Shown piece after piece: positions 1,220-24,546 of a stretch of DNA of 64,000 nucleotides. Positions within the stretch are counted from its first letter, which is position 1. The number at the start of each line of letters is the position of its first letter. Source of the stretch: Moorena sp. SIO3H5 (GTDB taxonomy: Bacteria; Cyanobacteriota; Cyanobacteriia; Cyanobacteriales; Coleofasciculaceae); the NCBI RefSeq assembly GCF_010692395.1, contig NZ_JAAHHS010000025.1, positions 1 to 64,000 of the forward strand, given 5' to 3'. A model generated the notes under the pieces. It was not told the origin of the DNA, did not search any database, and saw only the letters and a program-made list of their open reading frames with translations. A program made the position numbers and the translations under genes.

Positions 1220-1378
1220 ATCAAGCCTTCCTGGACGAACCCAATAGTAAACGTTAATCGTTGTTAAACTGCAGCTACCTGTAGGGTGGGCAAGGTTTTG
1301 CCCACCCTACCCATGGATTGTGTGCTAATCAAGCCTTCCTGGACGAACCCAATAGTAAAAGTTAATAGTTGTTGAACT
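1217..1378 (+). repeat. Direct repeat pair (~53 bp) flanking a perfect hairpin
   Basis: CTAATCAAGCCTTCCTGGACGAACCCAATAGTAAA(A/C)GTTAAT... at 1217-1270 and 1325-1378; between them GTAGGGTGGGCAA-GGTT-TTGCCCACCCTAC at 1281-1310. Confidence 0.9.
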
Positions 1379-1389
1379 AAGGCGGATTC

Positions 1390-2964: not shown

Positions 2965-2971
2965 ATGTTTA

Positions 2972-3103
2972 TATAGCGGTTTTAAATTTGGTGAGGTACA
3001 GATTTTCTGCTTTTAGGGAACAGGGAACACAGAAGAGGCAAAAGGCAAAAGGCAAAAGGCAAGAGAAAAAAATTGTGTACCTCATTAGGCTATAAAGCGC
3101 TAT
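2972..3103. mobile_element. MITE-like element with imperfect terminal inverted repeats around a short tandem repeat core
   Basis: Left TATAGCGGTTTTAAATTTGGTGAGGTACA...; right arm reverse complement ATAGCGCTTTATAGCCTAATGAGGTACACAATTTTT; core gggaacagggaacac..aaaaggcaaaaggcaaaaggc. Confidence 0.6.
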
Positions 3104-3136
3104 CATAAACTTGACTATTAAGGAATTTCCGGATTT

Positions 3137-4474
3137 ATGAAATCACGTTCAACAGAAGAGTATGAATTATTTAGAAAACTTAAACGCTATCAAGGTCAGC
3201 TTGATCTGGGTCATTCAGATGCCCCTGAATATAAGAAGAAAGATTTAATGGTAGAAATGGAGAATTTATATGCATCTTACCCTGCCCAGTATTTAGTCGA
3301 TTCTCATAAGGTAACTGTCCCAGAAAGTCTTGCTAATCTAGGTGCAAAAAAGATTTTTGGGCTCATTCCATCGTTTCCTAACGTTGATCCGAAATCCGTA
3401 GTTATTTTCCCTAAGACTTCAACAATTCTTGTTAAAATGTCGATTCTAGCCTCCAAAGATAGATTATTACGGATGGGAGGAAATGTTAAACCTATTACAG
3501 TCATTTATCCAGAAGGTAACTTTCGCTACAACCATAATGTAGATATATTTTGTGGCACTACTCGGCATTTAGTAGAAGTTTGTCCCGCGAGTTTTAAGAT
3601 TAAGCCAGACAAATTAGAAGAAGTCATTTGTACTGCAAAAAAGAATGGATATCTAATTGCTGCTTTTATACTGGAAACCCCTAATAATCCCTGGTGCCAA
3701 ATTTATAGTCCAGATGAGTTAAAAGAATTAGCAGAGGTCGCCCATAAACATAATATCCTGATCATTAATGATATGTATTTTTCAGGAACTGAAGCAATAG
3801 AAAATGACCAAGTTTCAGTGGCTAGTGTCAGTAGTCGCTCAGATTTAGTTATCACAACCTGTGGAATGCGAAGACAATTTGGAATTGACGGTATTGGCAA
3901 AGTAGGTTTTTTGACGAGTCAGAATGAGGCGCTTGTGAAGGAAATTAAGCGCTTTGTTGTTGCAGCACATATTCGTTACACCAATGCAGAGGTAATTACA
4001 GCTTCTTGGGCTCTAAAGAAAAGAGACTTGAATCATCGTGAAGAATTGAGAAAAGAGTTAGAGAGATTGAGGGCTAATGCCGAAGCTTTTCTGATGAATT
4101 CTGATTTATTCGCTATGGGAATGAAGATTATCAAGAGCAGCTGTGCAGGGCCTTTTATCAATATTGGGTTTAACTCAGAAATAGAATCTATGATGAAGAG
4201 TTTAGGGATAGCAGATAGTTATAATTTGGGTGAATATTTTTCTCAAATTGGAAAGGTTACACTTTTACCTTTAAGCTCAATGTTTACCAATAAAATTGGC
4301 TTTCGGGTAAACGTGACAAATATTTCGGAGTATAAAGCAGGATTAGCCTGTATGCAGGCTACCATTGAAAAGATTAAGAAAGGAGTTTCTTATCTTTCTT
4401 TAGAGACAGAAATAAATAAAGAATATGAGATTTTGAGACAAGGTTATCGTCCTTGGGAAGGTATCCAGGTCTGA
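3137..4474 (+). CDS. PLP-dependent aminotransferase class I/II fold protein, apparently lacking the Schiff-base lysine
   Basis: ETPNNPWCQIY (NPxxP-type), IINDMYFSG (DxxY-type), conserved C-terminal 'GFRVNV'; the SxSK position reads TTCGMRRQFG. Confidence 0.75.
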   Translation: MKSRSTEEYELFRKLKRYQGQLDLGHSDAPEYKKKDLMVEMENLYASYPAQYLVDSHKVTVPESLANLGAKKIFGLIPSFPNVDPKSVVIFPKTSTILVKMSILASKDRLLRMGGNVKPITVIYPEGNFRYNHNVDIFCGTTRHLVEVCPASFKIKPDKLEEVICTAKKNGYLIAAFILETPNNPWCQIYSPDELKELAEVAHKHNILIINDMYFSGTEAIENDQVSVASVSSRSDLVITTCGMRRQFGIDGIGKVGFLTSQNEALVKEIKRFVVAAHIRYTNAEVITASWALKKRDLNHREELRKELERLRANAEAFLMNSDLFAMGMKIIKSSCAGPFINIGFNSEIESMMKSLGIADSYNLGEYFSQIGKVTLLPLSSMFTNKIGFRVNVTNISEYKAGLACMQATIEKIKKGVSYLSLETEINKEYEILRQGYRPWEGIQV

Positions 4475-4660
4475 AAGTATGGCGGTTCAGATATAGCGCT
4501 ACGCGCAATGGCAAGAGGCAAGAGGCAAAAGTTCACGTGCATTAGCTTTTCGGCTTCTATCAATGTCCTAACTTTAATGGGTAGTGCTATATCGATGATA
4601 TGTAAGCATATGCGCGTTGCGATTTACCTGCGTGTCAATCGCATTCCTGTCTTATTTAAT

Positions 4661-4703
4661 ACTGCCCACACTGCCCACACTGCCCACACTGCCCACACTG
4701 CCC
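4661..4703 (+). repeat. 9-bp tandem repeat ACTGCCCAC, about 4.8 copies
   Basis: Direct reading. Confidence 0.97.
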
Positions 4704-4725
4704 TAGGTTATGGCTATTCAACCAA

Positions 4726-4763
4726 ACTTGATATCACCCCTAACACTTGATATCACCCCTAAC
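4726..4763 (+). repeat. 19-bp perfect tandem duplication ACTTGATATCACCCCTAAC x2
   Basis: Direct reading. Confidence 0.97.
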
Positions 4764-4858
4764 AGGTGTCTTGAGCTTAACGCTAAGGTATGAAGAGCAT
4801 GCTAAGCTTATAGATTAAAAGGCTCCCGACCACTATCTAATCATAGGCACGGACAACT

Positions 4859-5386
4859 ATGCGACCTGATTTGCAGGACTTGGTGATTTCAGAGGACTAT
4901 CTAACCAATTTAGTTGGGGAGAAGCCAGAGCGAGTCAGAGGTTTTTTCCTAGAGAAACCAAAAGAACCAGGAGATTTCCTGATCAAATTGGGTAGAGGGT
5001 CCTTTCTATGGCTGAAATATAAGGCAGTTAGACGGCTAGTGAAAGAAGTGGATCGATACAATACCGTGATTAGAGCTGTACACATTAATGATCAACTGGA
5101 AGAAGCTGGTAATCCAGGTGTTGGTCTGAGTAATCGGGAGCGAGTGCTCGAAGCCCTTGGGGTGATGAAAACGGATTTAGTGCGTGCTTTGAAGACAGAA
5201 CGAATTCTCAGGGAGAATAAGCAGTTTATTACTAAGAATCCTCAGCTATTTACTACTAATTTAACTACCTTGACCGCCCTGCACTTGAGTGATCAGGCCA
5301 GTGAGTATGGACGAGTGCTAGACCAAGCCTTGCAGGTAGCAGTGGGGGTACAAGAGGAAATGAGAAAATTGCAGAATCAGCGTTAG
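4859..5386 (+). CDS. Conserved-looking hypothetical protein (175 aa)
   Basis: Long ORF, balanced composition, ATG start; no family recognised. Confidence 0.7.
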   Translation: MRPDLQDLVISEDYLTNLVGEKPERVRGFFLEKPKEPGDFLIKLGRGSFLWLKYKAVRRLVKEVDRYNTVIRAVHINDQLEEAGNPGVGLSNRERVLEALGVMKTDLVRALKTERILRENKQFITKNPQLFTTNLTTLTALHLSDQASEYGRVLDQALQVAVGVQEEMRKLQNQR

Positions 5387-5499
5387 GGTCTCTATTTTAG
5401 GGAGTCGGGAATCGGGAGTCGCGAATAGGGAACAGGGAATAGGGAATAGGGAAAAAATTCTTTGCATCGCTGGTTTTTTGAATATTGAGGATGATTGGG

Positions 5500-6066
5500 A
5501 TGACAACAGTATTAAATCTAGAGCCCATTACCACTCTGACCAGAGAGCAGTTTTATCGCTTATGTAAGGCGAATCCTGATTTACAACTTGAACGTTCACC
5601 CCAAGGTAATTTAATTATTATGACTCCCTTAGGGGGAGAAAGTGGAAGGATTGAAGCGAATCTGATTGGTGATTTAATTATTTGGAATCGTCAGACTCGG
5701 TTGGGGGTTGTCTTCAGTTCTCAGACTGTGTTTAGTTTACCAGGTGGTGGCGATCGCTCTCCCGATGTAGCTTGGGTAGCCCTGGAACGATGGACAGCAC
5801 TGAGTCAAAAAGAAAGAGAAGGTTTTCCACCGATTTGTCCCGATTTTGTGATTGAGTTGCGCTCACGGACAGATCGATTAAAGCCCCTACAGGATAAAAT
5901 GCAAGAATATTTAGCCAGTGGCTTGCGTTTGGGTTGGTTGATTAATCCCCAGGATAAACTGGTGGAAATTTATATGGCAAACCAACCTGTAAAAGTAATA
6001 ACAATGCCTGTAGTATTAACAGGAAATGAGGTGTTACCGGGGTTTAGTTTAGAAGTTAGAAGTTAG
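5500..6066 (+). CDS. Uma2 family endonuclease-like protein (DUF820)
   Basis: Pattern 'LTREQFYRLCKANPDLQLERSPQGNLIIMTPLGGESG...RSPDVAWV...CPDFVIELRSRTDRL'; in-frame ATG at 5500 seems more plausible than the upstream ATG at 5485. Confidence 0.85.
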   Translation: MTTVLNLEPITTLTREQFYRLCKANPDLQLERSPQGNLIIMTPLGGESGRIEANLIGDLIIWNRQTRLGVVFSSQTVFSLPGGGDRSPDVAWVALERWTALSQKEREGFPPICPDFVIELRSRTDRLKPLQDKMQEYLASGLRLGWLINPQDKLVEIYMANQPVKVITMPVVLTGNEVLPGFSLEVRS

Positions 6067-6137
6067 AATTAAGAATTTAGAATTTAAAATGAAGTTCGAT
6101 GAGACTTTTTGCTAAGTAACTGATGCCTTACGTTTAG

Positions 6138-6243
6138 AAAGTCGGGAGTCGGGAGTCGGGAGTCGGTAAAAACCCTATATTATATATATAATATTACTAT
6201 GAAAACAGCTATATAATATACCTTATTCTTTCTTCCCACACTC
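6138..6243 (+). repeat. Dispersed repeat copy 1 (tandem GGGAGTC + TATA-rich + GAAAACAGCTATATA)
   Basis: Extended similarity to 7997-8107. Confidence 0.8.
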
Positions 6244-6419
6244 TCCCATCGGGTGCATCTCCTAAAAGTTGTTTGACCCAGCAGTGGTGCGTTACGGGCA
6301 GCAACCTAATCCTGGCTACGAGGTGAAACATGCAAGCCCCTAACTTGTCAAAAATTATTTAGGGTTGCTATATTTTGTTCAAATAGATTTGATTCAATTT
6401 CAGTTCAGGGGTACAATAA

Positions 6420-9108: not shown

Positions 9109-11028
9109 CTAAACTTCGGTATTATTTTCATCTGACGACTCATCAGGCGATAAATTATCAGTAGAGGCTTGATCAATCTCTTCATTGTTATCTTCATCTT
9201 GTTCAGATTCTTCCCTTGAATTATCTTCGATATTACCTGTAACAATTGAACTGTCATTCACTTCACCTGAAATATTCATAGAGGAATTCTTTTCCACCTT
9301 CTTACCACTAGATTCTGCCGTTGCATAGGTATTTACGATAAATTGAGCACCTTCCTTAGAAAGATTAGATATGACAGCAACTGGAGAAGTATTACCAGAA
9401 ATTATTTTTAAAAAAGATTGTCTATCAATCTGTATTTCTCCATCAATATTTGGACTCCACTCAATGCAATCAAAGGTGCAACTGCTATCCAAAAGTACTT
9501 CCTTCTGACTCTGGCTATTATCTCCATTTTTATCCTCCTTTGTAGTTTTCAGATTGATTCCACCCCGTTTAGTTTGGAAAAAGTTAGCACTATTAAGATG
9601 ACACTTATCTAGAGTTAGCCGAGTTAAATCAGCATATCTAAAGTCTGCGCCTGTTAAGTCGCTGCTTATAAACTGACTACCCCTCAAATTACCCGAGTGA
9701 AAACTAGCTCGAATTAACTGACAATCATTGAACGTAACACCTATCATTTTGGCTTGAGCAAAAATTACTTCTGTAAGATTACATTTTTGGGTAAAACTAC
9801 TATTGGAAAGGGAAACTTCTATTAGAGAAGCTGCTTCAGACGTTGCCCTTTTAAAACTAGTGTTAATGAAATGACAATTGTAGAGATTTGCTCTATACAA
9901 GTCAGTAGCTTCAAAATTAGTGTTATTAATAAGGTTATTGCTTAAATCAACATGCTGCATCGAGGCATTGTCAAATTTGCAATCGCTAATTGTTGGTTTT
10001 TGTTCTTCATGAGCACCATTTAACATTTTTTTATTGCTATTTTTTTTATTACTAATACAACAAATCACATCTAAATTATTTGAAGATTTGGTTCTAAATG
10101 ACTGAAAAATAGCTCTAGTAAATATAGTACTTATCAATGTGCAGTCATAAAACTTACAAGCTACTAATTTCGCATCTGAGAAGTTAGCTCTTGATAAGTT
10201 TGCCTTTTCAAATTTACTGCTAAACGATGCATTTACAAAACTAGAATCAGTTAAATCGCAATCATTATTGAACAATAGATATCCATCATTATCTATTCTA
10301 GATTTACTATAATTTGAAGGATAATGATGATCACGACAATTATCAAAAATTGAATTGATTAGCTTAACATTATCAAATTTAATTTGCAAAAATCTGGCGT
10401 TATCAAACCTTGAATTATTCAGAACAGAGTTAACAAATTTAACATTACTGAGATAAGAGTTACAAAAGTTTGCTCCTTCAATCCTAGCATCATAAAATTC
10501 AACATTAACTAATTGACAATCAGGACAGGCAAGTCCATAGGGTACATTTAAATTTAAAAACTTAGTATCTACTACTCTGATTCCAAATTGACTACACTTT
10601 TCAAGAAATACTTTTGAGTCTATATTACCTAAGTCTTCTTGATTTACCTCGACTTTAAATGTTATATTTACTAAATTTTTATTGATTTTTATTATATCTC
10701 CACCTTTTATTTTGCCTGTAGTAGAGATAAGAGAATTAGTAATTTGTTTGCCTGTAGTAGAACTAAGAGAAGTAGTAATTTCTGGATCGGTGTACTGAGT
10801 GAATTTGAATCCATTTATCCTTGACCAATAAATACTGATAAAAAACCAGTATTTTGAATCCAAAGGTAATGATGATTCTCCAGGAGACACTAGCTTTATT
10901 TCCGGTTGGTTTATGTTGCCATAAACTATTACACTGCCAAGGTGACCTTCATACAAGTATGACTTCTCAAATGGTTCTGGATCAGGAACCTTTTTTTGTT
11001 TAATTTTAATATATATACTGATTTTCAT
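9109..11028 (-). CDS. Pentapeptide-repeat-rich protein with C-terminal MNISGEVNDSSIVTGNI motif and acidic tail
   Basis: Many A(N/D)LxxxxF-type pentads such as 'KANLSRANFSDAKLVACKF', 'GSQFISSDLTGADFRYADLTRLTLDKC'. Confidence 0.8.
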   Translation of the reverse strand: MKISIYIKIKQKKVPDPEPFEKSYLYEGHLGSVIVYGNINQPEIKLVSPGESSLPLDSKYWFFISIYWSRINGFKFTQYTDPEITTSLSSTTGKQITNSLISTTGKIKGGDIIKINKNLVNITFKVEVNQEDLGNIDSKVFLEKCSQFGIRVVDTKFLNLNVPYGLACPDCQLVNVEFYDARIEGANFCNSYLSNVKFVNSVLNNSRFDNARFLQIKFDNVKLINSIFDNCRDHHYPSNYSKSRIDNDGYLLFNNDCDLTDSSFVNASFSSKFEKANLSRANFSDAKLVACKFYDCTLISTIFTRAIFQSFRTKSSNNLDVICCISNKKNSNKKMLNGAHEEQKPTISDCKFDNASMQHVDLSNNLINNTNFEATDLYRANLYNCHFINTSFKRATSEAASLIEVSLSNSSFTQKCNLTEVIFAQAKMIGVTFNDCQLIRASFHSGNLRGSQFISSDLTGADFRYADLTRLTLDKCHLNSANFFQTKRGGINLKTTKEDKNGDNSQSQKEVLLDSSCTFDCIEWSPNIDGEIQIDRQSFLKIISGNTSPVAVISNLSKEGAQFIVNTYATAESSGKKVEKNSSMNISGEVNDSSIVTGNIEDNSREESEQDEDNNEEIDQASTDNLSPDESSDENNTEV

Positions 11029-11033
11029 AGCTA

Positions 11034-12410
11034 TTAAAACCCATGATAAATTCTGCTATCAATAGCATTTTTTATCTGTTCTGATATTTTTGACGGATGA
11101 CTCATTATTTCCTGGGAACTGAATACCAAAGTATGTATCCCCATGCTGCTTTGCTGATCATTTAGCTTGGACTTAAAATTAATATCATCTTCAGTAGTCC
11201 ATTGTGACCCTTCTTCTTTTAATTCTTCATCTCGGCAATAGACAACAACACCATAATCATCAAAATCTAGCACTAAGCATTTTGACAAACCCTCTATTGG
11301 TGAGTATTGCCTCACACGAGGTCGTGGCAACTTTTGTTCTTGTATGGCTTGTAAAATAACATGCCCGACAGGAGATAATTTTGATGGTAGTTCTGATTTG
11401 TCAGAGTTTTCCCAAACCCAATAATATGTAGGTTTTTCGATGACGTTATCCTGGGTATCTGAACTGATATCTACTTTAGGAGGTGAAGGAAAGCTAAGTT
11501 CTTTAACCGACTCATCTAGAGTAGATATTTTTTCAAAACTGCTTAAAAAACTTTTACTTTGATTAGCAAAATCTACAATCGTTTTTTTTACTTTATTAAA
11601 TTTTGTCTTTAACTTACTCACAGAATCTGAGTATTCTTTATAAGATTCAAGTCTACCCTCAAGCTTTTGAACTTTTTGAGTATGTTCTGCTTTTTGATAT
11701 TTCAGTTGATCCTCGTATCTAGCTTTTTCTTTATTAAGTTTTTGTCTAGCTTCTTCAGCTTCTTGCTTTGCCGCTTCCTTTTCTTCACTTAGCTTGATTT
11801 GCTCTGCATCTTTATACAAAGGTTGAGGATCAATACCATATAAACTAACTGTTTTTATATCAATTCTTGCTTTTTTCCATTTATAGAAGTTTCTAACTAT
11901 TGCTTGACTTATCCATAAAGAAGAAGTAGACAATACTGCTGCTATGACAAAAGCTGTAACGGGTATAAAGCTATTTTTATCAACTGCTTGACTAACATTG
12001 AAAAGAGCGGTGAAGGTCAAATAGATATCTGCTAAAAATAAAACCCATATCCAAGGTATTACTATAATACCGAAAACAGAAATTTTTAATCTTTCTAGTA
12101 GTATTTTAGACGCATCTATTATTGAAGCAATAGGCAAAAATCCTGTGACTAGCAAGCTAATTAAAGTTTTAATAGGAATATTAAATACTTGTTCATAGCT
12201 GTCTAGATAAAATATAATTTCTAAAGCATAGTCTAGTATGGCAAACTGAGATATGCTAGAAATTAGTAAAATTCCTGTCAATGAACAAATCCAAAAAAAG
12301 TTTGTTTGTTCTTGATTGCGATATCTATCTTCAAGTTGTTCGCGATACTCCGGCTTGTTTACTATTTTTGGATTATAAATTTCCTGGCTTTCTGGCCTAC
12401 TATCATTCAT
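11034..12410 (-). CDS. Membrane protein with several N-terminal TM segments, central coiled coil and C-terminal domain of unknown function
   Basis: Hydrophobic segments 'TNFFWICSLTGILLISSISQFAIL', 'VFGIIVIPWIWVLFLADIYLTF'; heptad-rich 'LSEEKEAAKQEAEEARQKLNKEKARYEDQLKYQKAEHTQKVQKLEGRLE'. Confidence 0.75.
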   Translation of the reverse strand: MNDSRPESQEIYNPKIVNKPEYREQLEDRYRNQEQTNFFWICSLTGILLISSISQFAILDYALEIIFYLDSYEQVFNIPIKTLISLLVTGFLPIASIIDASKILLERLKISVFGIIVIPWIWVLFLADIYLTFTALFNVSQAVDKNSFIPVTAFVIAAVLSTSSLWISQAIVRNFYKWKKARIDIKTVSLYGIDPQPLYKDAEQIKLSEEKEAAKQEAEEARQKLNKEKARYEDQLKYQKAEHTQKVQKLEGRLESYKEYSDSVSKLKTKFNKVKKTIVDFANQSKSFLSSFEKISTLDESVKELSFPSPPKVDISSDTQDNVIEKPTYYWVWENSDKSELPSKLSPVGHVILQAIQEQKLPRPRVRQYSPIEGLSKCLVLDFDDYGVVVYCRDEELKEEGSQWTTEDDINFKSKLNDQQSSMGIHTLVFSSQEIMSHPSKISEQIKNAIDSRIYHGF

Positions 12411-12449
12411 GATGCATAAAACAAATCTGTATATTTTTTACAATTTTTA

Positions 12450-13304
12450 TTATGAAGTCCAATCCTTTGGTATAGCACAACTAGAAGGAAGTTGATCGGG
12501 GTCATACTTATCTTTTTTACCTTGAAAATCTGAAAGCTTACCATTAACAACATATTTTTCTATATATACACCACCTTGATCTACCAATTTAACTAGTTCA
12601 CTTGAAAGATTTTTGCTGACTTTGTCCCCGCTAGTAAAATCATAAATTTGATTATTTTTATATTTATCATTTTCTTTCAAAGCTACCGCAAAATTTGGAT
12701 ATTCTCTAAGTTGAAAAATCTCTTGAGCTCCCGCTCTATCCCAGGTATACCTATGAATTAAAATCTTCGGTTTAGTTTCTCTCATCTCAGCTGGAAGAGA
12801 CACTATAAAAATAATACCTTTAATATCTGGATCATTAATTAGCAAATTCCTTTCTATGCTTACATGAAGAATTGCTTGCTCTTGCTCACTAGACCATTTA
12901 GCAGCAGAACAACTATCTTTAGCACTGAAATGCAGACCATCTTTAAGCTGATCTATACGTCTTATGTAAAAAGTTTCAGGTTGATGAGAAAAAGTAAGTA
13001 TTGTTGAAATTTTGGGAGTATGTCGCTGATTTTTAAAGCTATTTTCGCCTTGGCTTTTTATTATGGCATTTGCAGGGAATCTTAAGATTAGCCTGTGCGG
13101 TGAACAGTTCCGCTCTCCAAATATTTCGCGATAGATAGAATCATTGGGCTGTACACTGATGGAAATGGGAAATGGTTTCTCACTCGGAACCTCGCAAAAG
13201 TTTTTTCCCTTTACCCTTTCTGACAGCGTCGGCAATAAAAAAAGACCAACAATGGCGAATGGAATCATCAAAAATAAATAGTGATAGCCATGGCTGATTT
13301 TCAT
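12450..13304 (-). CDS. Uncharacterised membrane-anchored protein
   Basis: Single N-terminal TM 'YHYLFLMIPFAIVGLFLLPTL' followed by soluble domain; same strand and 39 nt from the next gene. Confidence 0.7.
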   Translation of the reverse strand: MKISHGYHYLFLMIPFAIVGLFLLPTLSERVKGKNFCEVPSEKPFPISISVQPNDSIYREIFGERNCSPHRLILRFPANAIIKSQGENSFKNQRHTPKISTILTFSHQPETFYIRRIDQLKDGLHFSAKDSCSAAKWSSEQEQAILHVSIERNLLINDPDIKGIIFIVSLPAEMRETKPKILIHRYTWDRAGAQEIFQLREYPNFAVALKENDKYKNNQIYDFTSGDKVSKNLSSELVKLVDQGGVYIEKYVVNGKLSDFQGKKDKYDPDQLPSSCAIPKDWTS

Positions 13305-15095: not shown

Positions 15096-15703
15096 ATTGA
15101 CGCGGATGTTTTACCAACCACTCTTTTATAATAGCACAAATAATCTTTAATTGTAGCATATTTTGAAAATATTTGTAACAAGTGTGTAGGGAGTAGGTAA
15201 CAGGGAGTATGGTCAAGAGATATGAGAACTTTTTTGGGTTTTGGTGATATCGTGATCTAGTGAGAGGTGGTATAAAAAAAATGCGATCGCTCTTTTAGAG
15301 CTTACTTATTTATAGCCATTACAATCGTACTGAGTTAACCTTGATAGAGGGCTAAAATAGAGATGAATAAGCGATCGCAGTATTTGGATTTTCTGCAATC
15401 AGGATAACTGAACTAACAAATGCTTGGGGAGTCTCTGCTCAGGTGAATGTGCTTCCGGGAGTAATAGATTTTAGTGTAGATGGGTCAATTCCTAAGTAGA
15501 TGGGCTTAATTATCCGTAAAATAGCGATTGAGATTCAAAATGCTGAAAACCCCTTTAATAAAGGCTTTCAGCTTCATTTTAGTATTTTGATTTTTAACGT
15601 TTATTTATGCCCACCTACTTAGTTGTTTCAGAACTGAATCACAAAGGGTAAGAGTTCTTTTTGGAGGGCTTGTTTATTTACAGTGGGTAAATTAGTGACA
15701 TGG

Positions 15704-17743
15704 TTAATCATTATTTGGTAATTGTTTCATTAAGTCTTGACATTCTTGTGCTAAAGGAAGTTGTAATTCTGTAGCGATCGCTAAAGCTTGAGTGCAATAG
15801 TCATTAGCCAAATGATAATTACCTAATTTTTGATGTACTTTAGCTAAGTTATTGAGAACTTCGGCTTGGGCAGAAGGATCGCCAATATTTATAAAAATCT
15901 CTAGCCCTTTTTTGAAATTTTCCAAAGCTTCTGAATACTGCTCAAGTTTTATTAAACTTTCTCCCAAATTACACAACACTGCTCCTTCTCTCCAGTTATC
16001 TCCCATCTCCTGTGCAATAACTAGATATTGCTGATAGTAATCAACGGCTTGGATATAGTCTCCTAGTGAACTATAGGCACAACCTAGACCGCTTAGTGCT
16101 GTCATTTTTCCCTTTCGGTAGTCACTTTCTTCTGCAATAATCAAACTTTGCTTAAGGTATTCAGTTACTCGTCCGTAATTTCCCAGGGAATCGTAGACAA
16201 GTCCGAGACCGCTTAATGCAGAGCTTTCTCCCTGTCGGTCGCCAATTTCCCTAGCCATAAGCAAACTCTGCGAAAAATATTCAATGGCCTCGTCATAATT
16301 TCTTAAAGAATCGTAGGCAACTCCAAGAGAGCCATAAGCTACGAATTCTCCCTTTTTATAGCCTGTCTCTCTTGCAATAAGCAAATTATATTTATAGCAA
16401 TTAATAGCCTTTTGATAGTTTCCGATGGAATGGTAATATTGCCCTAGAGAATGGTAAAAACTATCCAAATTCTCCAAACCCTTCAAAGCCTTACCTTTAA
16501 ACTCCTGATGATTTATCTCTTGTGCAATTATCAAACTCTGCCTGAAATAATCAATAGCTTTGTCATAGTTTTTTAGGTAATAGTAGGTACTACCTAAATT
16601 GCATAGAGCGCCACATTCTCCCCATCTGCTACCAATTTTACGTGCTATAGCTAAATCCTGCTCATGGTAATTACTTGCTTGTTTGTATTCTCCTATAAAA
16701 TCATAGGCAAGACCCAATCCTCCCAAGGCTATTGCTTCTCCTTCCTGGTTTCCAATTTCTCGTGCAATAACTAAACTTTGTTGATAATAATTAATAGCTT
16801 GTTCAAAATATTTTTGGGAATAGTAAACATTGCCAAGGTTGCCTAATACTGAACCTTTTCCTCGCCTGTAACCAATTTCTTGTACTAACCTTAAAGCCTG
16901 GTTATAGTAATCAATGGCTTGCTCATAATCTTGCATCAAATAGTAAGAACTGCCTAAATTTACCAGTATTTCACTTTCTATTTCTCTGTTTTCAATCTTC
17001 TGTATCAACACCAAGGCTTGCTGATAGTAATCAATAGCTTGGTTATAATCTCCTCGAAAATAGCAGACACTACCCAAATCTCTTATAGTCTCAGCTTCTC
17101 CTTTTAGATCATTAATCTCTCGTGCGACTGTCAAACTCTGCTGTTGATAATCAAAGGCTTTGTCATAGATTCCTAATAAACTGTAGACATTTCCCAAATT
17201 TCCCAATGCCTCACCTTCTCTCTGTCTGTCGCCAATTTCCAGTGCTAACGCCAACGCTTGCTGATAGTAATCAATGGCTTGGTCATAATCTGCTCGAAAA
17301 TAGTAAGTATTTCCTATACAATTACAAAAAATAATATCCAAGTCAGGATTTAACTTGCCTAAAACTCTAATGTATAGGTTAAATTGTTGACCATAGTAAC
17401 CCCAGGTATCAAGTTGAGCGTGCAATTCTTGATTAGTAGAAGTATTAATAGAAGTAAAAATAATTTTGTTAGCTCGCTTCCAATCTTCTACTTCACACAG
17501 ATGAAAAAACGCCTCTAATAACCCTTTAACTTTATCTAAATTAGAAGCTTCAGGTAATGCTTGATATTTGGTTAGCCAGTTAATAACCGCTCTGTACTGA
17601 GTACGTTTCCATCGAGTTTTGATAGATTTGATAGTCGATGGATCAATTGATAAGTGCTCTAAAATTGATTTACCAGATGGTAAGAGTTCTATTTGAGAAG
17701 TTTCTTGTTTTATAGTGTTTGGATTAGCTTCGTTATTTGTCAT
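15704..17743 (-). CDS. TPR protein with conserved N-terminal pre-TPR module (sensor-like)
   Basis: ~40-aa TPR units (GNLGNVYYSQKYFEQAINYYQQSLVIAREIG...); N-terminal 'TQYRAVINWLTKYQ...SNLDKVKGLLEAFFHLCEVEDW'. Confidence 0.92.
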   Translation of the reverse strand: MTNNEANPNTIKQETSQIELLPSGKSILEHLSIDPSTIKSIKTRWKRTQYRAVINWLTKYQALPEASNLDKVKGLLEAFFHLCEVEDWKRANKIIFTSINTSTNQELHAQLDTWGYYGQQFNLYIRVLGKLNPDLDIIFCNCIGNTYYFRADYDQAIDYYQQALALALEIGDRQREGEALGNLGNVYSLLGIYDKAFDYQQQSLTVAREINDLKGEAETIRDLGSVCYFRGDYNQAIDYYQQALVLIQKIENREIESEILVNLGSSYYLMQDYEQAIDYYNQALRLVQEIGYRRGKGSVLGNLGNVYYSQKYFEQAINYYQQSLVIAREIGNQEGEAIALGGLGLAYDFIGEYKQASNYHEQDLAIARKIGSRWGECGALCNLGSTYYYLKNYDKAIDYFRQSLIIAQEINHQEFKGKALKGLENLDSFYHSLGQYYHSIGNYQKAINCYKYNLLIARETGYKKGEFVAYGSLGVAYDSLRNYDEAIEYFSQSLLMAREIGDRQGESSALSGLGLVYDSLGNYGRVTEYLKQSLIIAEESDYRKGKMTALSGLGCAYSSLGDYIQAVDYYQQYLVIAQEMGDNWREGAVLCNLGESLIKLEQYSEALENFKKGLEIFINIGDPSAQAEVLNNLAKVHQKLGNYHLANDYCTQALAIATELQLPLAQECQDLMKQLPNND

Positions 17744-19865
17744 TACTCTTTATTTTTTTGATTAATTCTTGACATTCTTGGACTAAAGGAAGTTCTAATT
17801 CTGTGGCGATCGCTAAAGCTTGATTACAATATTCATGAGCAAGATGATAATTACCTAATTTTTGGTGAACTTCTGCCAAATTATAAAGAGTGATAGCTTC
17901 ATGATATATATCATCAATTTTTCTAAAAATTTCTAGAGTTTTATACAAAAAATTTAAGCCTTTTAAATTCTGTTCCAGTTTGATGAGAGTTGAACCTAAA
18001 TTACCAAGTATTGAAGCTTCTTGCTGAAGATTACAAAATTTATTGACTATAGTTAAACTTTGCTGATAAGATTTAAGAGCTTGGCGATAATCTCCTAACT
18101 TATAATAAGCATTACCTATATTGTTCAGTACTGTATCAAGGTTGTTCGGTTCCCCAATTTCTTTACCAATAACTAAACTTTGCTTATAAGATTTAAGAGC
18201 TTGGTGATAATCTTCTAGCTTATAGTAAGCATTCCCAATATTGCTCAACGACTTATATTCCCCCTGTTGATCGCTAATTTCTTTAGTAAGAAACAAACGC
18301 TGTTTATGGTATTCAATTGCCTGTTGATAGTTTTCTTGGGCATAGTATGCAGAGCCTAGATTAAACAGTGCATCCGATTCTCCTCTTCGATCGCCTATGG
18401 TTTGTGTAATAGCTAAATCTTTCTCAAAGTATGAAATGGCTTGGGTATAGTTTCCCAAAGAATAATAAGTAAGACCAAGACTAACCAAGGCGGCTCCTTC
18501 TCCAGCAAGATCGCCAATAGCTTTTGCACTTGCTAACCACTGCTGGAGATAATCAATGGCTTGGTCATTCTTTCCTAGAGAACAGTAAGCATTACCTAGA
18601 CCTCCTAGAGCTTTTCCTACCAACTGCTGATTACCAATAGTCTGGGCAATAGCCAACTCCTGCTCATAATAATCAATGGCTCGATGATTTTCTCTTAGAT
18701 GAAGATAAACATTACCCAGATTACCTAGTGTTGTAGCTTCTCCAGCAGGATCTCCAATTTTCCGCGCAATGTTTAGACTCTGTTGTTGATATTTAATCCC
18801 TTGATTACTCTCCCCTAGAGCAAAGTAGGCAATGCCTAAACCACTAAGTGCTGCTGCTTCTCCTTGGCGATCGCTAATTTCCCGTGCAATAGTCAAATTT
18901 TGCTCGAAGTATGAAATGGCTTTAGAATAGTCTCCCAATGAATGATAAACATTTCCCAAATTACATAAAGCCGTTTCTTCCCCGGCACGTTCATCAAGTT
19001 TCTGTGTAATTGTCAAACACTGCTCGAAATACAAAATCGCACGATGGTAATTTCCTAGTGAATAGTAGGCTATACCTAAACCATTCAGTGCTTCTGTTGC
19101 TTCTTCTCTATCTCCTATTTCTTGTATAATGGATAAACACTGCTTAAAATATGTAATAGCACGAGTGTAATTTCCCAGTGAATTATAGATATTACCTAAA
19201 CCAACTAACGCACCGTATTTACTAACCAATTCTTCAGTTTTTTGTGTAATACACAAAGATTGCTCAAAATATGAAATAGCACGGGAATAGTCTCCTAGCG
19301 AAATGTGACTATTACCCAAATTAATCAAAGCATTTGCTTCCCATTGCCAGTAGTCAACTTCTCGTACATTGGTCAAAACTTGCTCATGGCAATGAATCGC
19401 TTCGTGATAGTTGCAAAGTTCATTGTAGACATTGCCTAAACCATCAAAACAAAAAGTATCTAAACTAGAATTTAAGTTGCCAAGAAGTTTGCTATACAAA
19501 TTAACCAGTTCTCGATAGTAACTCCAATGGTACAGTTGGTTATATAACTCCTTATGAGGAGACGTATTAAGGCTAATAAAAAGAATGTTACTTGCTCTTT
19601 GATAATCTTCTAATTCACACAAATGGTAAAACGTTTCTAATAATCCTTTGACTTTCTCTAAATTAGAAGCATCTCCATTAGGCTGATATTTCGTCAGCCA
19701 ATTTATAATTGCTCGATACTGACTTCTTTTACTACGCGGTTTGATTAATTTTACCTTAGCTGAATCAATATCAATGTTTTTCAAAATTGACTCACCATAA
19801 GGTACAAGTTTGACCTGGTCTGAAGCATTTTTTTCTTTATTATCTACCTCTAGTTGATTATTCAT
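17733..19865 (-). CDS. TPR protein with conserved N-terminal pre-TPR module (paralog)
   Basis: 'SQYRAIINWLTKYQPNGDASNLEKVKGLLETFYHLCELEDY' + TPR units; ATG at 19865 gives an ATGA overlap with the upstream gene (track start 19892). Confidence 0.92.
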   Translation of the reverse strand: MNNQLEVDNKEKNASDQVKLVPYGESILKNIDIDSAKVKLIKPRSKRSQYRAIINWLTKYQPNGDASNLEKVKGLLETFYHLCELEDYQRASNILFISLNTSPHKELYNQLYHWSYYRELVNLYSKLLGNLNSSLDTFCFDGLGNVYNELCNYHEAIHCHEQVLTNVREVDYWQWEANALINLGNSHISLGDYSRAISYFEQSLCITQKTEELVSKYGALVGLGNIYNSLGNYTRAITYFKQCLSIIQEIGDREEATEALNGLGIAYYSLGNYHRAILYFEQCLTITQKLDERAGEETALCNLGNVYHSLGDYSKAISYFEQNLTIAREISDRQGEAAALSGLGIAYFALGESNQGIKYQQQSLNIARKIGDPAGEATTLGNLGNVYLHLRENHRAIDYYEQELAIAQTIGNQQLVGKALGGLGNAYCSLGKNDQAIDYLQQWLASAKAIGDLAGEGAALVSLGLTYYSLGNYTQAISYFEKDLAITQTIGDRRGESDALFNLGSAYYAQENYQQAIEYHKQRLFLTKEISDQQGEYKSLSNIGNAYYKLEDYHQALKSYKQSLVIGKEIGEPNNLDTVLNNIGNAYYKLGDYRQALKSYQQSLTIVNKFCNLQQEASILGNLGSTLIKLEQNLKGLNFLYKTLEIFRKIDDIYHEAITLYNLAEVHQKLGNYHLAHEYCNQALAIATELELPLVQECQELIKKIKSNDK

Positions 19866-21550
19866 TTTATTAATTTTAGTAATTCTAAACATTTTTCAGG
19901 ACAAGGAATATTTAGCCATTGAGATAATCTTAAAACTTTTGAAAATAATGATTTTGCTTTTTCAAAGTAGCCATAGTCATAAAAAAATTGAGCTAAATAA
20001 TAAAAACAAATAGCTTCATTATACCTATCATTAATTTCTTGACAAATTTTTAGGGCTGATTCTAGAGTTTGACAGGCTTTTGAATGTTCCAAAAAGTAAG
20101 TTTGAGCTTTTCCCAAGTTACGAAGAGAAGTTGCTTCACTTTGACGGTAGCCAATCTCACGAGCAATAGTTAACTGTTGTTGTGAATATTCAACTGTATG
20201 CTCATAATCATTTTGTTGAAGATAGAAAATTGCTAAACCTTCTAATGCCATTGCTTGTCCAATTTTATTATCATTTGACTGTGCAATATGTAAACTTTTT
20301 TCAAGATAAAAAAGTGCTTTTTTATTATCTTCAATAGCACTATAAGTAACACCTAAATCACTCATAACCAAGCCTTCACCTATTCGATCTCCAATTTTTT
20401 TGGCAATGCTTAAACTCTCAAGATGAGCTTGAAGTGCATTAGAGTCATTACCTAGAAAGTGATAAGTTTTTCCTAAATTACTTAATGCATTTCTTTCTGA
20501 TTGTAGATCTCCTATTTGTTTAGTAATATTTTGGGAATTTTTAAAGTAGTGAATAGCTTGATTAAAATCGCCTATAGCATTAGATATTTTACCAATGCCT
20601 GTTAAAGAAGTTGCTTCCCATCGAGCATCTAATTTTCCCAAAAGCCTCTGATATAAACCAATCGTTTCTTCATAAAAACCCCAAGTTTGTAATTGTTCAT
20701 GTAACTCTTCATTTGTGGGTGTATTTATACGAATTAGCATTATTGCCTTAGCTTCTAACCATGCTTCTACCTCGCATAAATGAAAAAAAGCTTCTAGCAA
20801 CCCTTTCAATTTAGCAAGATCGGAAGTCTCTTGATTAGCTTGATATTTTGTCACCCAATTAATAACTGCTCGATACTGACTTTTTTGTGGAATATGTTTA
20901 ATTAACTTTACTTTCTTTGAATCAATAAGAGCAGCTAAAACTAAATCGCCTGGAAAATCATCTAAATTAATACCTAAACTACATAAGGCTTTTCCTTCTT
21001 CTTTTTTATCTTTAATGTCCTGTGCAAGTTGTCTCCATTGCTGACGATAATTAATTGCTTTGTCGTAATTTCCTAAAGCATCATAAGCATTACCAAGACC
21101 TTCTAAAAACCGGCAATTCCATTTATCATCTATCTTTCCTAGCAAACTACTATAAATACTAATTTGTTGTTTATAAAGTCCCCAAACTCCCAGTTGGTAA
21201 TGAAATTTATAATTACTAAAATTCTGATTAGCATTAATATCAATAGATAAAATTTTCTTAACTTTATCCCAATCTTCAACTTGACATATATGATATAAAG
21301 CTTCTATATATCCCGTTACTTTTTCTAAATTTGATGGATTATTACCTACTGGTTTATATTTCAACAGCCAGTTTTTGATTGCTTTGTAATGAGCTTTTTT
21401 CCAAGGATAAAGATTAGAATTATTTTGTTTCATTAAAATACGATCAATTCCAGCTATTAGCTGTTTTACATGAATTCTATTAATTGAAATATCTAATAGC
21501 TGAAAACCAGATTTATGAGATTTTTTTAAGTTTTCAATATTCTTGCTCAT
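19862..21550 (-). CDS. TPR protein containing two copies of the pre-TPR module
   Basis: Copies 'AHYKAIKNWLLKYKP...SNLEKVTGYIEALYHICQVEDW' and 'SQYRAVINWVTKYQ...SDLAKLKGLLEAFFHLCEVEAW' in one ORF. Confidence 0.9.
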   Translation of the reverse strand: MSKNIENLKKSHKSGFQLLDISINRIHVKQLIAGIDRILMKQNNSNLYPWKKAHYKAIKNWLLKYKPVGNNPSNLEKVTGYIEALYHICQVEDWDKVKKILSIDINANQNFSNYKFHYQLGVWGLYKQQISIYSSLLGKIDDKWNCRFLEGLGNAYDALGNYDKAINYRQQWRQLAQDIKDKKEEGKALCSLGINLDDFPGDLVLAALIDSKKVKLIKHIPQKSQYRAVINWVTKYQANQETSDLAKLKGLLEAFFHLCEVEAWLEAKAIMLIRINTPTNEELHEQLQTWGFYEETIGLYQRLLGKLDARWEATSLTGIGKISNAIGDFNQAIHYFKNSQNITKQIGDLQSERNALSNLGKTYHFLGNDSNALQAHLESLSIAKKIGDRIGEGLVMSDLGVTYSAIEDNKKALFYLEKSLHIAQSNDNKIGQAMALEGLAIFYLQQNDYEHTVEYSQQQLTIAREIGYRQSEATSLRNLGKAQTYFLEHSKACQTLESALKICQEINDRYNEAICFYYLAQFFYDYGYFEKAKSLFSKVLRLSQWLNIPCPEKCLELLKLIK

Positions 21551-23490
21551 AGTTTTCTTAAGTGTTCAAGTGAAACTGCCCTAATCAAATTATGTTGCCT
21601 TAATAAATATTCATTATTGTCATCAACACTTTCCTCAACTAAATAACGATCTCTCAACGCATCCAAAGCCCTTTGTTGAGCATCTTCATCAATATCCCAA
21701 TCTTCTAAATGACTTAACCAAAAATCTTCTGGTACTTCACAGCGATAAACAGAAGACTCACACAACAATAAATAAGCTTCACGAACTCCCTCTTTTAGCC
21801 GATTAAACGCCTTCTCAAGTCTAACTTTTACATTGCGGCGTAATTGGCGAGTGTATTTATGTAAATTAAACTGATCATCTGCAGATGCGGTAATTCCTTT
21901 AGTTTTTGCTTCTTCAATGGCTTTTTCAACTTCTTCTACTTCCTTTCCATACTTATTCCAATATCCTATAACATTGCCATAAAAAGGACGAGTAACAATT
22001 TCACCAGCTATTACCCGTAAAGCTAAAGGATGACCTTCATAAGCTCGTCCAATACGTTCTAAATAAGGTTTACCTTCTGCTTCTTCAGTAACATCTAATC
22101 CGGTCTTACCAAATAAGGCTAACTGTTCCGGTTCATCTAATCCGCTTAAAGCTTGACAATACCAAAAATTTTGAGAACGAGTCCCGATAATCGGAATTTG
22201 TGCTGGTAAATCCTGTGACGTTAAAATAAAACAACTTTCACAAGTATCAACATTTAACCAAGTTTGAAAGAACTTCACCCAGAACTCATCTATAAAATCA
22301 CTCCATCCTTCTTCTTCATTCCCCTGTAAAATTCTTTCTAAAGAATCAATTTGAATTAAATAACGATTCTCTTGTAAATGCCTTACCAAACGATACATTA
22401 AGCGTTGAGTGTCCTTACGGTCATCAGGAGTCACTACTTCACCACATTTTTCTAGTAATCTGGCAGCCACACTCCCAAAATCAGCAGTTTGTTCCTCATT
22501 ATCAAAATTTTCTTGGAGATAAGAATTCCAATCTTCAAACCAATCTTCTAGTTCAACGGCTAATCTTTCCCCTAAAGCGGTTTTACCAATTCCTGTAATC
22601 CCTACTAAAATCAACAAGCGACATGACCCTTTAAGTTTATTCGTTAAGTCATTGATTAGACTTTTACGACCTACCCAAGCCTCATCATAAGCAAAAAACT
22701 TAGGGGTTTTCGTCTTGTTTATAGGTTCTGTAGTAGTAAGTGTCTGAGCTGGTGAATTTAACTCAAGCTTGCCCAAAACCTCAAACGCAAAAGCACTAGC
22801 ATGACCAGCAGCTATTTCTTGATACCCCCCTTCATCTGCTTCACTCTTCCCATCAATTAAATCAGAAATACCCCGAATAATTAACGCTGAAACCTGTTGA
22901 TTAGCATGGGCAGCTTGTAAAATACCACGCCCTTCCATTTCCACAGCTAAAGCATCACCATAATTATGCTGAAGAAACTTAAACAAATCTGACTCCTTAT
23001 TCGCAACTACCTTTTCTCCCGCAGCAATAGGAGCAACAAATACCTTAGGGCTTGCTGAAGAAGAAACTCTAGCTAACCAGTCTGTTTTTTTAGCTTCAGC
23101 CCTTGCCCGTTGAATCATCTTATAAGTTGAAATACCTACATCCGGTCTAGGTCTAAAGGTCTCGGCTACCTTACCAGACTCATAACCATAAACCTTAGTA
23201 GCAGCTACCACATCCCCCAGTTTGACATCCTTAATGCCTCCAGCTACCCCCACAAACAGAATCACATCAGGATTAAAATAAGCGATCGCCCTTTCTGCTT
23301 CCACCGCTGCGGGGGAATTTCCTGCACCTGTCTCCACAATACCCACCTCCCACTCCTGACCATGACTAGAAAATTTCCCCCTCTCATAAATAGTCCCTTG
23401 GGGGTGCATCTCCTCCTTCAAGTCAGTGAGATGAGCACGTACTGCCATGTATTCACTCGGAATTGCTGTGAGGATAACCGCACAAGACAT
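21547..23490 (-). CDS. Nucleoside phosphorylase/nucleosidase (PNP_UDP-type) domain fused to STAND (NB-ARC-like) NTPase and winged-helix region
   Basis: N-terminal 'VGVAGGIKDVKLGDVVAATKVYGYESG', 'AVEMEGRGILQAA', 'IIRGISDLIDGK'; P-loop 'GITGIGKTAL'; Walker-B-like 'LIQIDSLE'; 'GHPLALRVIAGEI'; ends after winged-helix-like segment. Confidence 0.92.
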   Translation of the reverse strand: MSCAVILTAIPSEYMAVRAHLTDLKEEMHPQGTIYERGKFSSHGQEWEVGIVETGAGNSPAAVEAERAIAYFNPDVILFVGVAGGIKDVKLGDVVAATKVYGYESGKVAETFRPRPDVGISTYKMIQRARAEAKKTDWLARVSSSASPKVFVAPIAAGEKVVANKESDLFKFLQHNYGDALAVEMEGRGILQAAHANQQVSALIIRGISDLIDGKSEADEGGYQEIAAGHASAFAFEVLGKLELNSPAQTLTTTEPINKTKTPKFFAYDEAWVGRKSLINDLTNKLKGSCRLLILVGITGIGKTALGERLAVELEDWFEDWNSYLQENFDNEEQTADFGSVAARLLEKCGEVVTPDDRKDTQRLMYRLVRHLQENRYLIQIDSLERILQGNEEEGWSDFIDEFWVKFFQTWLNVDTCESCFILTSQDLPAQIPIIGTRSQNFWYCQALSGLDEPEQLALFGKTGLDVTEEAEGKPYLERIGRAYEGHPLALRVIAGEIVTRPFYGNVIGYWNKYGKEVEEVEKAIEEAKTKGITASADDQFNLHKYTRQLRRNVKVRLEKAFNRLKEGVREAYLLLCESSVYRCEVPEDFWLSHLEDWDIDEDAQQRALDALRDRYLVEESVDDNNEYLLRQHNLIRAVSLEHLRKL

Positions 23491-23675: not shown

Positions 23676-24224
23676 ATGGACGACCAACAGATACTCCAAG
23701 TATTTATGCTCGAATACGAAAAATTGAAAGAAGAGCAAGCCCAGCGTATTGGCTTCCGAGACCAGATGATTTATATAACCCTAGGAATCTTTGGTGGCGT
23801 TCTCTCCTTCGCCCTCTCCAATAAAACTAATTCCTATGCCCTTCTAGTTATTCCTTGGGTTTGTCTGATTCTAGGATGGACTTACTTAGTCAACGATGAA
23901 AAAATTTCCGCCATTGGCAAATATCTCCGCCTAACTCTAACTGAAAAAATCAAAGCCCACACCGGCCATCCCGACCTTGAGTCTATCTTTGGCTGGGAAA
24001 TTGCTCATAGAAGCGATCGACGCCGAGAAAGACGAAAAATAGAGCAATTAATTATTGACGAAATTACCTTTGTTTGCTCAGGTTTACTCGCATTATTTAC
24101 CTTCTGGTTTTCTGGAACTACTCTCCCCTGGATAGTTCATTTCATCTGCGCTGTTGAGTTTATCCTATTGCTAATCTTAGGTATAGAAATTGTCATTTAT
24201 GCTGACTTAGATAAAGGTCGATAG
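23676..24224 (+). CDS. Small membrane protein (182 aa), four predicted TM segments, divergent from the STAND operon
   Basis: 'QMIYITLGIFGGVLSFAL', 'YALLVIPWVCLILGWTYL', 'FVCSGLLALFTFWFSG', 'FICAVEFILLLILGIEIVIYADL'. Confidence 0.75.
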   Translation: MDDQQILQVFMLEYEKLKEEQAQRIGFRDQMIYITLGIFGGVLSFALSNKTNSYALLVIPWVCLILGWTYLVNDEKISAIGKYLRLTLTEKIKAHTGHPDLESIFGWEIAHRSDRRRERRKIEQLIIDEITFVCSGLLALFTFWFSGTTLPWIVHFICAVEFILLLILGIEIVIYADLDKGR

Positions 24225-24230
24225 GCAGTC

Positions 24231-24273
24231 GGGAACAGGGAACAGGGAACAGGGAACAGGGAACAGGGAACAG
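24231..24273 (+). repeat. 7-bp tandem repeat (GGGAACA)x6
   Basis: Direct reading. Confidence 0.98.
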
Positions 24274-24546
24274 AGCCTCGTAGGGTGTGTTAGGGACGGA
24301 TGCTGCTGGCGAATTCGTGAAACCCTTATTCTTCCGTAATCTGCTCCCCTCTCCCAAGGTTGGGAGAGGGGCTGGGGGTGAGGGCTGATGGGGCTTCTTG
24401 GAATGTTCACGAAATATTTCGCCAACAGCATCGTCCCGTAACGCACCGTCAGAGTTGGCATAGCTATAATAATCAGTATTCTGATAATCAGCATCTCCTC
24501 TTCTTGTCTAACTAATTTGCCACCCTAGCAGAGCCATCTTCTCAAA

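Follow-up and report, generated by a model that had tools for sequence, protein, structure and literature searches.

The question raised by this locus, which lies in a window of 64,000 nucleotides from Moorena sp. SIO3H5, is whether a STAND ATPase can have its sensor on a separate polypeptide. Sensor repeats on the STAND chain are usual, without being strictly defining. An earlier note described a PNP-NTPase gene followed by three overlapping TPR genes, and read them as a STAND with separate, duplicated sensors and an effector directed at nucleotides or nucleosides. The four-gene operon is confirmed: all four open reading frames lie on the - strand, and the three junctions are as reported, namely ATGA at 21547-21550, ATGA at 19862-19865 (if sensor 2 begins at its inner start) and an overlap of 11 nt at 17733-17743 (Table 1). 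The ORF of sensor 2 has an alternative start at 19892, which would give 719 aa. Since the arrangement is conserved across loci, a chance origin of the layout is excluded. The interpretation placed upon it is, overall, partly supported.

Table 1. Features of the PNP-NTPase locus in window coordinates.
Feature	Position	Strand	Details and basis
PNP-NTPase, effector + STAND NOD	21547..23490	-	647 aa; ORF, Pfam, family alignment, profile search
PNP/MTAN-like nucleosidase domain, aa 3-242	22765..23484	-	PNP_UDP_1 E=5e-27; MTAN alignment
NOD (P-loop NTPase, helical domain, winged helix), aa 267-644	21559..22692	-	NB-ARC/AP-ATPase type
Sensor 1, 562 aa	19862..21550	-	Two arms (~21122-21400, ~20615-20941), short TPR array
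Sensor 2, 710 aa	17733..19865	-	Inner start; arm (~19506-19763), 14 TPR-like 40-aa repeats
Sensor 3, 679 aa	15704..17743	-	Arm (~17324-17722), TPR array
Variable sensor slot	15288..21580	-	2.1-kb one-sensor segment instead in another Moorena strain
TM4, 182 aa, ~four predicted TM segments	23676..24224	+	Divergently transcribed; hydropathy, homologs

The domain assignments of the first gene, an N-terminal nucleosidase-like domain, a P-loop NTPase and a winged-helix-like end without repeats, held up on each count. Residues 5-231 match Pfam PNP_UDP_1 (E=5e-27), and alignment with MTANs places active-site residues at E13, E186, R206, S209 and D210; fold and residues together assign the domain to the PNP/MTAN nucleosidase superfamily. 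The residues are kept in 12/12 relatives, E186 being replaced by D in one. MTANs with the same active-site residues are the closest solved structures, no defence-type PNP was found among the PDB sequence matches of the domain, and the PADLOC model of PN-superfamily effectors matches it with E=7e-17. An AF2 model of the PNP-NTPase was rejected as too poor for use on the PNP domain (mean pLDDT 61). The proposal of a nucleotide- or nucleoside-targeting effector is thus favoured as far as the conserved active site goes; as to the substrate, our best guess is a purine nucleoside or nucleotide, with ATP favoured.

Pfam matches to AAA_16/NB-ARC are weak in this chain and begin at aa 272; scored as a single sequence against NB-ARC it reaches 22.5 bits, as compared with a gathering threshold of 23.5 that several relatives exceed. 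The family alignment has an invariant Walker A (GxTGxGKT), Walker B (D..E) and GHPLAL motif (G-H-(P)-L columns). The NOD is classed as a STAND NTPase by its winged helix, its GxP motif and a P-loop bearing the motifs of that class. The plant NLR Roq1 (E=6e-9) is a best PDB profile match, and PH0952 is among the top. A winged-helix pattern of secondary structure spans aa 588-646 in the same low-confidence model, the chain ends 3 aa past the NOD (aa 644), and Pfam detects no repeats in it. Nor did Pfam detect any EAD or death-like domain in the window proteins.

That the three downstream genes all encode TPR arrays, as had been proposed, is borne out by Pfam matches with E-values down to 1e-103. 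Each of the three proteins begins with a conserved, helical, non-canonical domain of ~100 aa, hereafter the arm, which the earlier note did not mention. Sensor 1 contains two arms, a layout also found at loci L083 and L105. The PADLOC model PDLC01169 'TPR' strongly matches the arm-TPR proteins (E down to 1e-117). NCBIfam TPR matches (HaaT and others) fall far under their cut-offs and the NsdA_fam_reg cut-off is passed by two arrays; we read these matches as probably reflecting generic TPR similarity. The TPR repeats contain variable positions. Recent shuffling of repeats within genes is not evident, as repeat nucleotide identity is modest (mean 0.47-0.60), and neither is locus-wide homogenisation of arms, those of the same locus being only slightly more alike than those of different loci.

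The split layout was assessed over 83 NTPase matches, drawn from the window and 79 named loci. An arm-TPR gene lies directly downstream of the NTPase gene in 62 of these, overlapping it in 30, and in a further nine the arm is on the NTPase's own chain. Of the 24 NTPase loci in 292 independently sampled cyanobacterial genomes, 23 were adjacent or fused to an arm-TPR gene. The contingency that PNP-NTPase and TPR genes are never adjacent, on which the earlier reading could have foundered, is thereby set aside. No arm-TPR gene was found near the NTPase at a few loci (L114, L171, L174, L181). The two genes are mostly spaced by -44 to +30 nt, the NTPase ending a few residues past its winged helix, and the sensor repeats, usually part of the STAND chain, are on separate proteins at 62 loci including that of the window. 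Duplication of the sensors is real, with two to five sensor genes at some split loci and six arm matches on a plasmid of Nostoc NIES-3756, but it is not the rule, a single sensor gene being present at 55/62.

The search for single-chain fusions returned the nine NTPase-arm chains noted above. Eight fused proteins (L079 included) could be placed on the NTPase tree, where they group as a single derived clade nested in the split family. Modelled by AF2, one natural fusion (mean pLDDT 77) contains the NOD, helical hairpins at 455-533 and TPRs from 539, and hence a helical module between winged helix and TPRs, as in the arm of TPR-STANDs; domain orientation in the model, and with it the arm-WHD interface, is unreliable given a pTM of 0.52. 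The top PDB match of this model is the TPR-STAND PH0952 (6mfv, E=4e-14, 757 columns). The chain break is the point at which single-chain TPR STANDs run from winged helix into arm and sensor. NTPase and arm distances are correlated (Mantel r=0.53, 0/2000 permutations), a correlation that shared ancestry also predicts. Other STANDs of the Moorena sp. SIO3H5 genome that were examined in full, mostly HTH-NB-ARC-WD40 proteins, contain neither PNP nor arm. With gene order conserved, overlaps frequent and one clade naturally fused, comparative genomics supports the predicted STAND whose sensor is on a separate polypeptide.

Both ends of this architecture are subject to exchange. The N-terminal effectors found on the NTPase family include PNP, PNP-SEFIR, SEFIR, caspase, CHAT, trypsin and HTH domains, and EAD8 or bDLD1 occurs on the relatives L106, L108 and L140. 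PNP is absent from most relatives and, at the search threshold used, from one Moorena genome. The commonest N-terminus is HTH-like, and because most members have this in place of a toxic enzyme, some of them may be transcriptional regulators. Between Moorena strains the PNP-NTPase DNA is 92-95% identical, while the sensor genes differ and the break falls at the gene junction; the flanks of the sensor slot are ~92% identical and its content is replaced. At a fixed site in Okeania, NTPase and sensor are replaced and PNP is conserved. The sensor swaps at the fixed Moorena locus fit what would be expected of interchangeable sensors, without proving that several act simultaneously.

Beside the operon lies a gene for a four-TM protein (TM4), whose membership of the system was likewise not mentioned in the earlier note. 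Its homologs are 62-95% identical. Among the 292 cyanobacterial genomes TM4 occurs only in the four that carry the same PNP subfamily (4/4; hypergeometric p=3e-9), and it occurs in 6/72,556 plasmids, each with a nearby PNP gene, proximity in L. boryana IU 594 being judged by near-identical coordinates. In Calothrix NIES-4105 a TM4-PNP pair is flanked on one side by a pPIWI_RE gene and on the other by a PNP-SAVED gene that has a ThiF gene in its vicinity. Judged by this co-occurrence, TM4 is a partner of the window's PNP subfamily, and it may act as a second effector or regulator at the membrane. Two identities for TM4 were rejected: no SLATT family was matched in Pfam at E up to 5 by any of 13 members, and the PADLOC match to PDC-M50A (E~1e-3) is too weak.

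We therefore consider it reasonably probable that the locus is a split STAND conflict system, in which the PNP-NTPase chain unites an effector domain with a nucleotide switch made up of NBD, helical domain and winged helix, and the arm-TPR proteins would provide the autoinhibitory arm and TPR sensor in trans. At rest, the arm of one sensor would be docked on the winged helix and NBD and keep the switch closed in its ADP form. Binding of a ligand, probably a phage product, to the TPR array would draw off the arm, whereupon the NOD would exchange nucleotide and oligomerise. The clustered PNP domains would then hydrolyse a purine nucleoside or nucleotide and the infected cell would stop, with TM4 as a putative membrane partner of the PNP output; phage defence through nucleotide depletion is the likely role. 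More tentatively, the arm might be a standard docking plug for which co-expressed sensors compete on one effector-NOD, with cassette swaps at one chromosomal site renewing specificity and the PNP product gating TM4.

Competing accounts deserve weight in unequal measure. PH0952 and MalT, both TPR STANDs, owe their autoinhibition mainly to the arm that comes after the WHD (PMC6468293). Provided in trans, such an arm would make a natural lock, and the arm-TPR proteins could be regulators or chaperones, akin to antitoxins, with the trigger sensed by the NOD or, under a guard logic, through disappearance of the TPR protein. The overlapping genes would secure stoichiometry for such a lock. We nevertheless think this rather unlikely: the TPR array is long, arm-TPR genes are exchanged between strains while the NOD is retained, as expected for ligand recognition, and most of the mechanism is in any case shared with the split-STAND model. 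The prevalence of HTH-like N-termini similarly invites comparison with MalT, and a role in transcription control or development instead of immunity; this appears improbable when PNP, SEFIR, caspase, CHAT or trypsin takes the place of the HTH in the PNP-NTPase studied here and in its relatives, death-like EAD8/bDLD1 domains are present in the family, the TM4-PNP pair adjoins other defence-type genes and sensors are exchanged between strains.

The resemblance of the PNP domain to MTANs, down to identical active-site residues, would also suit a housekeeping MTA/SAH nucleosidase fused by accident, with the TPR genes as unrelated neighbours. We find this very hard to reconcile with an NTPase that can bear various effector domains instead of PNP, with the lack of PNP in most relatives and, at the threshold of the search, in one Moorena genome, and with the arm-TPR genes that trail the NTPase family almost everywhere. 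Least credible of all is a single-chain STAND broken by frameshift or assembly error. Single-chain relatives do exist, and a Moorena PNP-NB-ARC gene (L187) has an in-frame stop ahead of its TPR part, but 62 loci from many genera are split at the same point, the sensor genes have their own starts, multiple copies and an N-terminal extension missing from fused proteins, and the latter are derived within the split family. For the family as a whole, the conserved break rules out a frameshift artefact.

Several described systems are comparable. PH0952 and MalT (PMC6468293) share the order NOD (NBD-HD-WHD), arm and TPR sensor, and the natural fusion matches PH0952 over its length; the Moorena-type chain, in contrast, is cut between WHD and arm, with arm and sensor in separate, often overlapping and sometimes several genes. 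Avs, bNACHT and CARD-NLR LypABC follow a similar logic of effector, STAND NTPase and repeat sensor with exchangeable effectors, whereas the antiviral STANDs and bacterial NLRs described in PMC13236601 (LypB) and PMC10907252 have NTPase and repeats on a single polypeptide. Fungal PNP_UDP NLRs (PMC9815663) also place a phosphorylase-type effector ahead of an NLR NTPase, yet on a single chain and with a different NTPase subfamily. A PNP-superfamily effector is further shared with Detocs and CBASS, whose PNP effectors are ATP nucleosidases. Those of CBASS are activated by a cyclic-nucleotide system and not by a STAND. The Detocs PNP, which cleaves ATP, is activated through a two-component system instead of a STAND (PMC11249213). 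The ternary and EAD conflict systems of Kaur et al. (PMC7159879, PMC8195603) resemble ours, in the portions of those papers considered here, in effector palette, in EAD8/bDLD1 in some members and in multicellular hosts, and in one type the TPRs belong to a vWA protein and the AP-ATPase is encoded separately; the two-gene core of NOD and arm-TPR pair is, in the same portions, undescribed. Searches of open-licence papers found no split or two-gene STAND.

STAND/NLR switches are mostly treated as one-chain receptors. Arm-sensor proteins that are separate, sometimes duplicated and exchangeable make the coupling of sensor to switch testable by subunit mixing, and the sensor swaps between sister strains are ready-made natural test pairs. 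The PNP effector, for its part, gives the previously unannotated TM4 a partner. As the parts are labelled 'AAA family ATPase', 'MTA/SAH nucleosidase' and 'tetratricopeptide repeat protein', homology-based defence annotation may be missing split systems. Were the arm indeed a docking plug, these cyanobacteria would have a bacterial receptor repertoire in which signalling and ligand-binding chains are separate genes.

Four minus-strand reading frames, described with their overlaps in the earlier note, are present in the window (coordinates of these and other features are tabulated below). The PNP-NTPase chain indeed ends without repeats: it comprises a nucleosidase-like PNP_UDP_1 domain (Pfam, E=5e-27) and a P-loop NTPase that matches NB-ARC/AAA weakly, while the other three proteins are, as had been claimed, TPR arrays in a Pfam search. 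Each of the three carries a conserved N-terminal stretch of ~100 aa, around 'YRAIINWLTKY..NLEKVKGLLEAFYHLCEVEDW', which we term the arm; the 562-aa protein has two copies, and none was found elsewhere in the Moorena genome at the search sensitivity used.

Features of the window and of related loci (L-numbers, loci from other genomes or plasmids).
Locus	Coordinates	Strand	Feature
Window	21547-23490	-	PNP-NTPase, 647 aa
Window	19862-21550	-	arm-TPR protein, 562 aa
Window	17733-19865/19892	-	arm-TPR protein, 710/719 aa
Window	15704-17743	-	arm-TPR protein, 679 aa
Window	9109-13304	-	beyond operon, three genes: one for a pentapeptide-repeat protein, one for a coiled-coil protein whose N-terminal part has hydrophobic segments, one for a protein lacking Pfam matches
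Window	23676-24224	+	TM4, divergent from PNP-NTPase
Window	24221-24275		short repeated element adjoining TM4 stop; dozens of copies across Moorena genomes
L187 (Moorena genome G294)	861-3812		PNP-NB-ARC gene of different kind; in-frame stop ahead of same-frame TPR part
L106	4941-7337		PNP/SEFIR-NTPase, EAD8 adaptor at C-terminus
L108	9383-11632		PNP/SEFIR-NTPase, EAD8 adaptor at C-terminus
L140	3761-5995		PNP/SEFIR-NTPase, EAD8 together with bDLD1 at N-terminus
L110	4053-4514		small EAD8-like gene (judged by eye) between NTPase and sensor
L084 (same as L116)	4194-6296		arm-TPR protein, second PNP-like domain, C-terminal
L107	11178-13589		arm-TPR protein, second PNP-like domain
L083	4053-8204		PNP-TPR-GreAB-C-PIN protein directly upstream of PNP-NTPase; different known conflict system; its PNP 46% identical to window PNP
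L204	7486-11646		PNP-TPR-GreAB-C-PIN protein directly upstream of PNP-NTPase; different known conflict system

The NTPase is of the NB-ARC/AP-ATPase type. Walker A, the D..E of Walker B and the GH(P)L motif are invariant in its alignment, the best solved relatives in a profile search against the PDB are plant NLRs and the STAND protein PH0952, and the chain stops a few residues past the predicted winged helix (WHD). In the AF2 model of a natural fusion, L163, the STAND switch (NOD) is followed by helical hairpins at 455-533 and by TPRs from 539 (pLDDT 77 on average, mostly >80 in the arm and TPRs, poor in parts of the winged helix), and the model's best match in the PDB is PH0952 (6mfv, E=4e-14, 757 columns). 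In TPR STANDs the arm, itself TPR-like, comes after the winged helix and is chiefly responsible for autoinhibition (PMC6468293). This position, together with the fusion order and PH0952 match of L163, places the chain break of the split proteins at the WHD/arm border. The arm's docking interface on the NOD is a putative one, since domain orientation in the L163 model is unreliable (pTM 0.52).

The NTPase and arm-TPR genes travel together. Among 292 cyanobacterial genomes, 21 had a match to the NTPase query at E up to 1e-40 (G167 by the PNP part only) and 19 had a match to the arm; an arm-TPR gene adjoined or was fused to the NTPase at 22/24 loci in a first table and 23/24 in a profile-based one. 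Named genomes, searched independently by pattern, contributed 79 loci, in Moorena, Okeania, Oscillatoria, Symploca, Leptolyngbya, Planktothrix, Microcystis, Anabaena and others, as well as in the giant sulfur gammaproteobacteria Thiomargarita and Parabeggiatoa (L120, L125). These and the window yielded 83 NTPase hits: an arm-TPR gene lay directly downstream in 62, the arm was fused in 9, and the remaining 12 had neither, several standing at a contig end or with an arm gene within ~2 kb; four (L114, L171, L174, L181) apparently lack an arm gene near the NTPase. Counted from longest-ORF starts, 30 of the 62 adjacent pairs overlap, 11 by exactly 4 nt. All nine arm-bearing records of the plasmid collection also carry the NTPase, at neighbouring coordinates. 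Split loci hold one sensor gene in 55 cases and two to five in 7, an undercount where the genes are more widely spaced; on a Leptolyngbya boryana plasmid the NTPase is followed by five TPR genes, and a Nostoc plasmid shows six arm matches.

Modules are exchanged naturally at fixed sites. Two other Moorena strains (L103, L104) carry PNP-NTPase at the same site, with 92-95% nucleotide identity to the window across the flank, TM4 and PNP-NTPase, short indels aside, before identity drops to ~50% inside the last bases of the PNP-NTPase gene. Past the sensors L103 returns to 91.5%, such that where the window has a 6.3-kb segment encoding three sensors, L103 has 2.1 kb encoding one of 591 aa. The single arm-TPR protein of L104 is 415 aa long, and the right flank of that locus could not be compared with the window's. 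Two Okeania genomes are ~90% identical in the flanks and PNP, with protein identity of ~45% from about residue 260 on and a different sensor as well. These patterns point to effector, NOD and arm-TPR as the natural units. Moorena genome G293 gave no PNP-NTPase match, its left-flank match ending near 24530, beside TM4. The stop in L187 reflects either a broken single-chain relative or a sequencing error.

On a quick tree of 85 NTPase cores, with a long outgroup branch, the fused state needs one change and fused proteins nest within the split family, while effector labels require at least 18 changes, the 'HTH-like' label being based partly on N-terminal length. L120 and L125 pair inside the cyanobacterial members, a placement likely reflecting horizontal transfer between large or filamentous bacteria. 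N-termini include PNP, PNP-SEFIR, SEFIR, caspase, CHAT, trypsin and HTH. Some of the NTPases end in EAD8, and in one EAD8-bDLD1 precedes PNP. The PNP-like domains on arm-TPR proteins of L084 and L107 indicate that effectors can sit on both subunits. NTPase and arm distances are correlated (Mantel r=0.53; 0/2000 permutations as high), as would be expected of partners and also of common descent.

The PNP domain aligns with MTA/SAH nucleosidases. The active-site residues E13, E186, R206, S209 and D210, whose counterparts function in MTAN, are kept in 12/12 relatives, save E186 to D in one. PADLOC's PN-superfamily effector model also matches (E=7e-17). The PNP effector of Detocs cleaves ATP (PMC11249213), and we propose ATP as the substrate here.

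TM4 has about four hydrophobic segments by hydropathy and no credible family in a Pfam search; its homologs share 62-95% identity. Within the 292-genome sample it is confined to the four genomes having the window-type PNP (p=3e-9), and among 72,556 plasmids in six: five cyanobacterial, with that PNP, and one from Streptomyces, with a PNP gene two genes upstream and NUDIX nearby. It is unannotated in the window and at plasmid loci L204-L206, L208 and L209. On two plasmids TM4 adjoins PNP with the NTPase absent, which argues that it goes with PNP. It was seen at 8/11 named PNP-type loci, and so not at every one. In Calothrix NIES-4105 the TM4-PNP pair has on one side a PNP-SAVED gene, close to a ThiF gene, and on the other a pPIWI_RE gene, a defence-type neighbourhood.

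The searched open-licence literature yielded no account of a STAND family that is divided at the WHD/arm border and has exchangeable sensor genes; PADLOC's 'TPR' model matches the arm-TPR proteins, so individual components had been gathered before in a defence setting. What is established for the system is its composition, the adjacency of its genes, their natural fusion, the exchange of modules, the active-site residues and the association with TM4. In the strongest rival to a sensor model, the arm-TPR proteins act as an antitoxin-like lock; the two differ mainly in the outcome expected of deleting all sensors. Under the sensor model, the arm would dock in trans and lock the NOD, and the TPR array would bind a trigger that is probably phage-derived. 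The NOD would then oligomerise, switching on PNP, with TM4 as a possible downstream actor or regulator, and the cell may be arrested through nucleotide depletion.
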